Below the pieces are notes generated by a model. The model did no database searches and was not told where the DNA came from. It worked only from the letters and a program-made list of their open reading frames with translations. A stretch of DNA of 64,000 nt, taken from positions 822,443 to 886,442 of the forward strand of contig NZ_CP094288.1 in the NCBI RefSeq assembly GCF_022693705.1, given 5' to 3'. The DNA comes from Infirmifilum sp. NZ. Lineage in GTDB: Archaea; Thermoproteota; Thermoprotei; Thermofilales; Thermofilaceae. A program made the translations under genes and the position numbers. Shown in pieces: positions 14,494 through 20,413 of the stretch (its first letter is position 1; each line of letters begins with the position of its first letter).

Positions 14494-15243
14494 ATGCCTG
14501 TTGAATACGATGAGGAGTTGGTGGGCGAGCTCACGAGGATGTTCGCAAAGCTGGATAACCCAGTTACCATAAGGTACTTTAGAGACCCTGAAGCTGAGTG
14601 CATGTACTGCGATGACACGGAGCAGATTTTGGAGCTGATAAATAAAACCTCCGGCGGGAAAGTAAGGATCGAGAAGCACTCAAGCAAAGACCCTGAGGTT
14701 AAGAAGTACAACATCCCCATGTTCCCAGCGATACTGATACACGGGGTTGATGAGTGGAACATAAGGTACTTCGGCATACCTGCAGGCTACGAGTTTGGAG
14801 CCTTTGTTGAGGACATACTCGACGCGTCTACGGGTAAACCGGAAATCGACCCCAAGCTGGCCGATCTACTGAAGAAGTACGTTACCAAGCCAACTAGGAT
14901 CATGGTCTTCGTAACTCCGACATGCCCCTACTGCCCGCTAGCCGTGAGGGCCTCGCACAGGTTCGCTATGGTCAATAAGAACATCTACGGCGACATGATA
15001 GAGGCCTTGGAGTTCAGCGACCTAGCAGATAGCTATGGTGTCTACGCTGTTCCGAAGAACGTGATACAGATTAACGGCGAGGATAAGGTGGAGTTCGAGG
15101 GGGCGGCTCCAGACCCCTACTTCGTGGCCAAGATACTCGAGGCGTACGGCGCCGAAATCCCACAGGATATTCGGGAGGCGATCGCCGGGATAGGCGTAGA
15201 GGAGACATTGACGGACGTGGAGGACGAGCATCACCACCACTAA
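14494..15243 (+). CDS. Protein disulfide oxidoreductase (PDO), two-thioredoxin-fold
   Basis: Cytosolic redox protein of hyperthermophiles that forms, reduces or shuffles disulfides. 249 residues contain two thioredoxin-like halves, each with a CXXC centre: CMYC (Cys36/Cys39) and CPYC (Cys144/Cys147). The latter is the glutaredoxin-type motif usually most active. cis-Pro segments IPMFPAIL (about 74-81) and YAVPKNV follow each. Unusual is the natural C terminus EDEHHHH, a four-His acidic tail that could bind metal. Such proteins accompany disulfide-rich intracellular proteomes; the Cys-ladder protein at 19877 is a conceivable client (inference). Confidence 0.9.
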   Translation: MPVEYDEELVGELTRMFAKLDNPVTIRYFRDPEAECMYCDDTEQILELINKTSGGKVRIEKHSSKDPEVKKYNIPMFPAILIHGVDEWNIRYFGIPAGYEFGAFVEDILDASTGKPEIDPKLADLLKKYVTKPTRIMVFVTPTCPYCPLAVRASHRFAMVNKNIYGDMIEALEFSDLADSYGVYAVPKNVIQINGEDKVEFEGAAPDPYFVAKILEAYGAEIPQDIREAIAGIGVEETLTDVEDEHHHH

Positions 15244-18414: not shown

Positions 18415-19848
18415 ATGCTTCGAACACCCCTCTACCTCGGGAAGACACCTCACTTGGCCGTTGGAGTCAGGATACCTGAAGTGTTTCTGGATGGCATACT
18501 CGATGGTTTCAAGGACGAGAGAGCTGCCGGCGGGGTTATGCTTTCATACCACCGTGAAACCGCACCAGAGTACGTGATAAACGCGCCGCCGGGGGCCTAC
18601 GAGATTACAAGGGGCCACACTGGAACCTCCATACGTAGGTACATAGAGTTGAGCGTGGCTAAGGCTAAGGAGAAGGAGGTTGCCATCGAGGTCGAGGCCG
18701 ACCACGTTTCTGTGACAGCCTCTGCTACCGACGCCGTTAGGAGGATCACGGGAGGACGAGCGGTGACCAAGCTCTCGGATAGGGAAGTTGAAAAGGTCCT
18801 GGAGTACATTCGGGATGAGGTGCGAGAGGCTGCGAGCACGCGCAACATCTACTTCTTCACAATAGATACCTGTGAGTTGATAAATCACGCAGCCGACCAA
18901 GCGACCAATGATGAGGTGAGCGCCCTCTTTAAAGACCAGGTGGGTGACAGTGGCCTCCTCAACAGATACTTGGGGGTAGACGTGAGTCTTGGAGGTCTCC
19001 GCTTGAAGTTTGATCAGCTTGAGGTTAAGCGGATTGCGTTGAAGCTTTATAGGAGTGTGGAAGTGCTTGAGCGCATTTACAGGATCATCCGAGAGGAGGT
19101 TCCCTGGGAGTTTGGAGTCGAGATTGCCTTCGATGAGACGCCGAATATCACAGACCCGAAAGAATTGTTCTTCATTCTGAGAGAAACAACTGAGCGTGGG
19201 GTGCCTGTGGACTTCGTTGCACCTAACGTTGGTTTCCAGAAAAGAGAGGATTACGCAGGGAGTTTAGAGGAACTCTACAGCAGGGTCAAGGTCTACTCGG
19301 GCATCTCATCTCTCTTCAGCGTGCTCCTTTCATTCCACAGCGGTAGCGGCCGCACACCGTTCTCTATGAAGGGCCCCGGGGTTCACGATACGATTAGAAG
19401 AGCGACTGGGGGTCTCTTCAAGTACAAGGTCTCTGGCGTGTACTTTGAGCTCCTCATGCACCTGATGGCCAGCCACAAATCTAGCCGTGTCAGGAGGTTC
19501 TTCGAGGAGATCTACGACGAGGTCCTCGCGTTCCTTGAGGAGCAGGTTAGCGTCAGAGGAGAGCTTTACGACGAAAACCTTGCGAGACTCCTAGAAGAGC
19601 ATATAAGGCTCAGCGGAAACCAGGGTAGGTACCTTGTGGACACACCCCTTTTCCGGCACTATTCCTTCATAGCCCTTAACATGCGAAGAGACGGTAAGCG
19701 GTTTATTAGAGAGGGGGTCGTCCAACTTTACGAGGAAGAGCCCGAGTTCAAAGCAAGCGTTGACAGAGAAGTTCGTCGACTGACTTCAATGCTGGTGGAA
19801 AGCCTGGGTTTCACGGGCAATGCCGCCTCGGTGCGCAGGAACATATAA
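18415..19848 (+). CDS. UxaE-like (tagaturonate epimerase family) protein
   Basis: 477 residues matching, from memory of the Thermotoga enzyme, the order of UxaE blocks: EADHVSV (about 101), FFTIDTCE (about 146-153), YLGVDVSLGGLRLKFD, EIAFDETPNITDP near 240, then SFHSGSGR and TGGLFKYKVSGVYFELL near 300-345. Characterised UxaE epimerises D-tagaturonate to D-fructuronate in uronate catabolism. Differences are evident: the family's HSGSDKFS is HSGSGRTPFS here and the KTAGTSYLEA block is KVSGVYFELL, so substrate preference may have shifted. Monocistronic, with a promoter for the next small gene lying over its stop codon. Confidence 0.75.
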   Translation: MLRTPLYLGKTPHLAVGVRIPEVFLDGILDGFKDERAAGGVMLSYHRETAPEYVINAPPGAYEITRGHTGTSIRRYIELSVAKAKEKEVAIEVEADHVSVTASATDAVRRITGGRAVTKLSDREVEKVLEYIRDEVREAASTRNIYFFTIDTCELINHAADQATNDEVSALFKDQVGDSGLLNRYLGVDVSLGGLRLKFDQLEVKRIALKLYRSVEVLERIYRIIREEVPWEFGVEIAFDETPNITDPKELFFILRETTERGVPVDFVAPNVGFQKREDYAGSLEELYSRVKVYSGISSLFSVLLSFHSGSGRTPFSMKGPGVHDTIRRATGGLFKYKVSGVYFELLMHLMASHKSSRVRRFFEEIYDEVLAFLEEQVSVRGELYDENLARLLEEHIRLSGNQGRYLVDTPLFRHYSFIALNMRRDGKRFIREGVVQLYEEEPEFKASVDREVRRLTSMLVESLGFTGNAASVRRNI

Positions 19849-19850
19849 AA
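19842..19850 (+). promoter_or_regulatory. TATA box of the Cys-ladder gene
   Basis: CATATAAAA centred at about 19847 lies 30 bp upstream of the ATG at 19877, overlapping the last codons and stop of the UxaE-like gene. It is a near-consensus archaeal TATA element and predicts an mRNA with a leader of only a few bases. It supports independent transcription of the small gene. Confidence 0.6.
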
Positions 19851-19876
19851 GCATGTTGCGTAGTCAAGAGTAAGCA

Positions 19877-20110
19877 ATGGCCCGACGTGAAGATTGCTTA
19901 CTGGCATGCGAGGAGATGGTTGAGGAGTGTACCAGTAGGTGCGAAAGGTTATTGGCCGAGTGTATAGAGGAGTGCGAGGGCCAAGAGCAGACAGGTTGCA
20001 CGGAGGCATGCGAGGAACTCTGCAACAAATACGGAGATGGATGCAACCAGGTATGTAATGCTATTGATTCGAGATGCCATGATTTATGTGAAGATCTGAG
20101 TAAAAGATGA
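19877..20110 (+). CDS. Cysteine-ladder small protein (CX3C every 11 residues)
   Basis: 77 residues with 13 cysteines at 7, 11, 18, 22, 29, 33, 41, 45, 49, 56, 60, 67 and 71. They form CX3C pairs repeating with an 11-residue period: 7/11, 18/22, 29/33 in the first half and 45/49, 56/60, 67/71 in the second. Between the cysteines the sequence is Glu-rich and helix-compatible, so cysteines would line one face of long helices, as in twin-CX3C hairpins or Cys-lined metal-storage bundles. No signal peptide. The gene has its own strong TATA box and probably a nearly leaderless mRNA. I do not recognise a family; metal storage, Fe-S or disulfide-stabilised scaffold are possibilities. Confidence 0.75.
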   Translation: MARREDCLLACEEMVEECTSRCERLLAECIEECEGQEQTGCTEACEELCNKYGDGCNQVCNAIDSRCHDLCEDLSKR

Positions 20111-20161
20111 GCGTAAAATTTTTTCCTCACGGTCTGCTACTAAAAGACCGGGTGAAACCCG

Positions 20162-20413
20162 ATGAGAGGGTGGATACTGTCTTTCAGGCTCGGTAGGAAG
20201 CGTTACTATCCTAGGCAGGTGATAATAGAGGTTGAAGGGAAAACGGCAACCCACCTAGTGATCGGCAGGAAAGTCGTGTGGACGCACCCCAATGGGAAGA
20301 AATTTATCGGAAAGATCGTGCGAAAGCACGGGGCTAGGGGCAACAACTTCATTGCCTATTTTAGGCGGCAGCTTCCCGGCATCGCGCTCGGATCTGAGGT
20401 AACGATCCTGTAG
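20162..20413 (+). CDS. rpl35ae: Ribosomal protein L35Ae
   Basis: Large-subunit protein shared by eukaryotes and some archaea. 83 residues, normal for archaeal L35Ae. The family signature VRKHGARGNNFIAYFRRQLPG (about 53-73) and the terminal ALGSEVTIL are plain. ATG at 20162 follows GGGTGAAACCCG, which includes a short ribosome-binding-like GGGTGA. A T-rich run (AAAATTTTTT, 20115-20124) between the upstream gene and this one may act as terminator or promoter. Patchy distribution of L35Ae in archaea makes it a useful lineage marker. Confidence 0.92.
   Translation: MRGWILSFRLGRKRYYPRQVIIEVEGKTATHLVIGRKVVWTHPNGKKFIGKIVRKHGARGNNFIAYFRRQLPGIALGSEVTIL

Follow-up and report, generated by a model that had tools for sequence, protein, structure and literature searches.

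What fold, and what chemistry, could a 77-residue archaeal protein adopt when thirteen of its residues are cysteines set at a strictly regular spacing? The question is raised by a small gene of Infirmifilum sp. NZ, found in a stretch of 64,000 nucleotides (the window, the whole stretch of DNA that was analysed) that belongs to a 1.83-Mb single-contig genome.

The gene and its cysteine pattern

The gene and the two parts of its cysteine pattern are located as follows.
19877..20110, plus strand: gene for a 77-residue, 13-cysteine acidic protein (pI about 4.3), recognised as an open reading frame whose orthologues hold 12 invariant cysteines
19895..19975, plus strand: first run, C7-X3-C11-X6-C18-X3-C22-X6-C29-X3-C33, within predicted helix 1 (residues 2-34)
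20009..20089, plus strand: second run, C45-X3-C49-X6-C56-X3-C60-X6-C67-X3-C71, within predicted helix 2 (residues 39-76)

The cysteines occupy positions 7, 11, 18, 22, 29, 33, 41, 45, 49, 56, 60, 67 and 71, and the preliminary description was correct in reading the open reading frame at 19877-20110 as 13 cysteines in 77 residues, with two triple CX3C runs at an exact 11-residue spacing. Two such triples appeared in one of 300,000 random placements of 13 cysteines (3e-6), while the DNA pattern of a single run is present at two places in the window, each inside this reading frame, and in none of 100 shuffles. Cysteine accounts for 17% of the protein, as against 0.66% in the window genes of at least 100 amino acids.

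Orthologues are encoded in four other Thermofilum genomes, namely NZ13 (a MAG; 95% identity), G005 (57%), G004 (37%) and G003 (36%), and the gene is also carried by G212, a genome conspecific with that of the window. The 12 cysteines invariant across the five sequences are exactly the six CX3C pairs of the two runs, so that the 11-residue spacing, whose conservation had been named at the outset as a point to check, is kept in the homologues. C41 is variable and is absent from the G003 orthologue, whose linker joining the two runs is also shorter by one residue. The cysteine total is odd (13) in three of the five sequences, so that in each of them one thiol would stay free or take part in a bond to another molecule. 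The cysteine codons swap between TGC and TGT from species to species, and selection on the residue is therefore indicated. Judged from the orthologues with invariant cysteines, the codon switching and a TATA box kept in five genomes, the open reading frame at 19877-20110 is a real gene. A dN/dS comparison with NZ13 was set aside as uninformative, being based on only six changes.

When 398 genomes of the phylum were searched with a profile, only members of the genus were returned, plus two weak matches, in G296 and G311. On inspection one of these proved to be a longer protein of no relation and the other a regulator of the PadR type, and both were rejected as relatives. The search of genome contigs matched NZ13 alone, and viral contigs, plasmids and phages gave no match to the protein. 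By the genomes searched, the protein appears to be restricted to one Thermofilum clade. Scans for the cysteine pattern in the phylum and in viral contigs were discarded, the matches listed being mostly low-complexity TGC/TGT repeats. Two loci in other genomes of the phylum, L042 (G262:C2:153318-153557) and L041 (G334:C12:64334-64447), contain dense CEVSCTTCETVCQ-type cysteine repeats of mixed CX3C/CX2C spacing, which are unlike the 77-residue protein.

Promoter, neighbouring genes and origin

The surroundings of the gene comprise the following features.
14494..15243, plus strand: gene whose product resembles protein disulfide oxidoreductase (PDO) and contains two CX2C motifs, from sequence features
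18415..19848, plus strand: upstream neighbour, UxaE-like (tagaturonate epimerase family; PF16257, E 5e-26)
19842..19851, plus strand: TATA box (CATATAAAAG), about 30 nt 5' of the ATG and overlapping the 3' end of the upstream gene
20119..20124, plus strand: six-T run just 3' of the stop codon, a possible though weak archaeal terminator, from the sequence
20162..20413, plus strand: downstream neighbour, ribosomal protein L35ae (NF003326 above cut-off; synteny)

The TATA box that had been assigned to the gene is indeed present and fits a leaderless transcript; each of the five genomes has one some 30 nt ahead of the start codon, even where the upstream neighbour is a different gene. Since it stands at a similar distance despite the differing upstream genes, a leaderless transcript belonging to the cysteine-rich gene itself is suggested. 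A scan for bacterial sigma-70 consensus promoters was disregarded as having no bearing on an archaeal gene. The PF16257 match to the UxaE-like protein of this hyperthermophilic archaeon covers part of its length.

L35ae adjoins the cysteine-rich gene in four of the five carrier genomes. In the near-complete G004 (a 1,611,988-bp single contig; L011), protein and Pfam searches did not detect L35ae, although the cysteine-rich gene stays at its locus there; the search for L35ae in G015 was likewise negative. The corresponding site in G007, G012 and G001 consists of the UxaE-like gene followed by L35ae, with a gap of about 50-130 bp and without a cysteine-rich frame, and a PDO tree groups the five carriers with a support of 86. 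The simplest reading would be a single gain of the gene at the site between the UxaE-like and L35ae genes, loss in the sister species being less simple. The cysteine-rich gene is a favourable example of a young gene, in that sister species still show the site unoccupied.

The PDO-like gene lies about 4.6 kb upstream of the cysteine-rich gene and within about 5.3 kb of it in all five carriers. We take the product of 14494..15243 to be PDO-like from its sequence features. PDO and its neighbourhood are equally present in species without the cysteine-rich gene, where PDO is found beside LeuRS, and the linkage was for this reason dropped as functional evidence.

Predicted fold and helix geometry

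AlphaFold2 predicted for the window protein two helices (residues 2-34 and 39-76) joined by a loop at 35-38, with a mean pLDDT of 92.7, and the run led by the G003 orthologue gave the same two helices (pLDDT 83.9); the alignments were shallow, with five rows, and low pLDDT was found mainly at the termini. The cysteine-lined helical hairpin anticipated in the preliminary description was hence predicted both from the window protein and from its most distant orthologue. As two helices connected by a short loop and each bearing CX3C motifs, the predicted structure has the make-up of a CX3C/CX3C helical hairpin, and the protein may be regarded as a variant of this class with three CX3C motifs per helix.

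How the two cysteine stripes could face each other was derived, rather than from the AlphaFold2 model, from a model of our own in which two ideal alpha helices run antiparallel and residue i is paired with residue 78-i. At a period of 11, all six Cb-Cb distances come to 3.8 Å without clash (cost 0.00-0.01), whereas among the other periods 7 is likewise satisfactory (0.07), 14 fits badly (4.0), and 9, 10, 12 and 13 fail (48-70). The interaxial distance of the period-11 model is about 8 Å, and the distance from CA34 to CA39 (12.4 Å) can be closed by the AlphaFold2 loop 35-38. The invariant cysteines form an even set of 12, symmetric about residue 39. In the four distinct sequences, positions 15/63 are hydrophobic throughout (V/I, V/I, V/V, V/L), and positions 26/52 vary jointly in size (L/Y, T/S, V/M, A/S; only four distinct sequences being available for this pattern); judged from these four sequences, both pairs seem to behave as contacts in the i + j = 78 register. 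Cross-helix disulfides of constant i + j are sterically possible in the ideal-helix model for all six pairs. The same geometry also nearly fits three four-cysteine metal sites, so that it does not discriminate between disulfide and metal.

Relation to known cysteine-rich helical proteins

Scans of curated families gave no family above cut-off, the window protein matching no Pfam family at E ≤ 10; over all five members the Pfam scan at E ≤ 10 gave DUF326 and TF_AP-2 only, with no match to the small Tim families (Tim8/9/10/12/13). TIGR04117 (Cys-Xaa-Xaa-Xaa repeat radical SAM target) was rejected at 9.9 bits (E 0.74) against a cut-off of 50 bits, and sequence matches in the PDB (scorpion toxins, PA2107) were at noise level. 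Foldseek against PDB and BFVD returned nothing at E ≤ 0.001. The best PDB fold match, the saposin fold of 4ddj (E 0.13, TM about 0.5, 14% identity), is not significant; this fold is likewise a short cysteine-containing helical chain of similar length and differs in topology and cysteine pattern.

Two known types of CX3C hairpin come nearest in architecture. The alpha-hairpinins, the closest documented of all, are helix-loop-helix peptides with the motif CX3C-X4-20-CX3C or CX3CX3C-X4-20-CX3CX3C, and the CX3C-Xn-CX3C form has two disulfides (PMC11591084). They resemble the present protein in their helix-loop-helix build with CX3C on both helices, and their disulfides link the two helices in the way that is proposed here; they are, however, plant defence peptides with one CX3C per helix (CX3CX3C in the 6C class), whereas the present protein is archaeal and carries three on each helix, repeating every 11 residues with X6 between them. 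Membership in this family was not accepted, neither the family motif nor a plant origin being found. The mitochondrial small Tim proteins are also helical hairpins with CX3C on each arm (PMC3759932), but they have two cross-helix disulfides as compared with six possible ones, act as hexameric chaperones of membrane proteins and show no sequence match to the protein. The open-licence literature searched yielded no description of helices that each bear three CX3C pairs repeating every 11 residues. With a two-helix CX3C hairpin predicted, the twin-CX3C hairpin, one of the two analogies first put forward, proves to be the better one.

The other analogy was copper storage. In such a reading, which we consider unlikely, two hairpins would associate as a four-helix bundle, and free thiols lining its core would load Cu(I), in the manner of Csp3, whose bundles are lined with helix-borne cysteines and bind Cu(I) through single-helix CXXXC motifs (PMC5171941). 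The likeness in cysteine lining and CXXXC motifs speaks for it, as do the 19.8 bits scored by the G003 orthologue against DUF326 (PF03860; cut-off 20.4) and the noise-level match to the cysteine-rich helical PDB entry PA2107. In the Pfam scan at E ≤ 10, however, neither the window protein nor the remaining three orthologues match DUF326, and the G003 score, which covers 15 positions of a 21-position model, may reflect shared cysteine spacing only. Csp proteins are four-helix-bundle monomers with free thiols, whereas the present chain is shorter, amounts to half a Csp bundle with its two predicted helices, follows an 11-residue period and has no conserved histidine in the alignment of the window protein with its four orthologues; the lack of a structural match at E ≤ 0.001 points the same way. 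Membership in Csp/DUF326 was rejected on the below-cut-off score and the two-helix prediction, and the copper-storage analogy is correspondingly weak. The window genome, moreover, has no copper ATPase above cut-off. At cut-off this ATPase was not found in G000, G003 or G004 and was found in G005 as well as in the non-carriers G001 and G002, and as it occurs in non-carriers and was not found in G003 and G004, its presence does not track the cysteine-rich gene.

A putative cystine ladder and its alternatives

A cystine ladder is favoured over Csp-like copper storage because the period-11 cross-helix pairs reach disulfide distance without clash. We give about even credence to a state of the hairpin with six interhelix disulfides forming a three-rung ladder. 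The small protein, in which no signal peptide is seen by eye, would reside in the cytosol and fold into a hairpin of two antiparallel helices, with three CX3C pairs aligned in a straight stripe along each helix and the two stripes facing each other. The six pairs C7-C71, C11-C67, C18-C60, C22-C56, C29-C49 and C33-C45 would then zip into interhelix disulfides, making three double rungs in a disulfide-permissive cytosol, and the ladder would replace most of the hydrophobic core to give a rigid, heat-stable and very acidic rod. The oxidant would probably be PDO; we infer both this use of PDO and the oxidation state of the protein. According to a published report, an abundance of disulfides inside the cell is universal among Crenarchaea, and PDO is presumed to catalyse their formation (PMC3177088). 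The nearby PDO-like gene, present also where the cysteine-rich gene is missing, would be a permissive condition only. As to function, an adaptor or binding role for the rod is a guess, which lies outside the confidence placed in the ladder.

The invariant cysteines can also be counted as three sets of four, and the main rival to the ladder, possible if clearly less probable, is that each layer of two CX3C motifs (four cysteines) holds one ion, for example Zn(II), so that three sites would follow one another at intervals of about 17 Å. The metal would serve as the structural core, or the protein as a metal buffer. The ideal helices approach the four-cysteine arrangement in three layers simultaneously, and a precedent exists in the small Tim CX3C hairpins, which can be disulfide-bonded or zinc-bound: their reduced form binds zinc 1:1 through all four cysteines of the twin CX3C, while the oxidised form is disulfide-bonded (PMC3759932). 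The four-cysteine fit is, however, slightly worse (cost 1.8; diagonals of 7.6-7.7 Å against a set limit of 7.2 Å), the adjacent genes are only UxaE-like, L35ae and HypF, with no metal-transport or metal-regulator gene, and the cytosol of such organisms is reported to favour disulfides (PMC3177088). An extension that we regard as highly improbable is a metallo-rod, in which three stacked four-cysteine layers about 17 Å apart would each carry a metal centre, possibly an iron-sulfur cluster. Together these would make up a self-contained array in one dimension, comparable to an electron wire in miniature, that would have originated within one archaeal clade.

The cystine ladder might alternatively be reduced and oxidised reversibly, so that the protein would act as a redox reservoir exchanging up to 12 electrons with PDO. 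Six possible close-packed cystines per 8.7 kDa and the proximity of the PDO-like gene in all five genomes are in keeping with this idea. Hairpins with multiple staples are normally hard to reduce, though, the PDO neighbourhood exists without the cysteine-rich gene too, and a redox partner is neither fused nor directly adjacent, which makes such a role very unlikely.

If the six-disulfide ladder is true, the 11-residue period would provide a simple code by which two straight helices are stapled together through an extendable row of disulfides, with little hydrophobic core, which would be of use for the design of very stable proteins and for understanding how disulfides are employed in hyperthermophile cytosols.

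On the opposite strand, a frame of 88 codons (19864-20130 of the window, minus strand) is open over the cysteine-rich gene and is probably a by-product of that gene's codon make-up.
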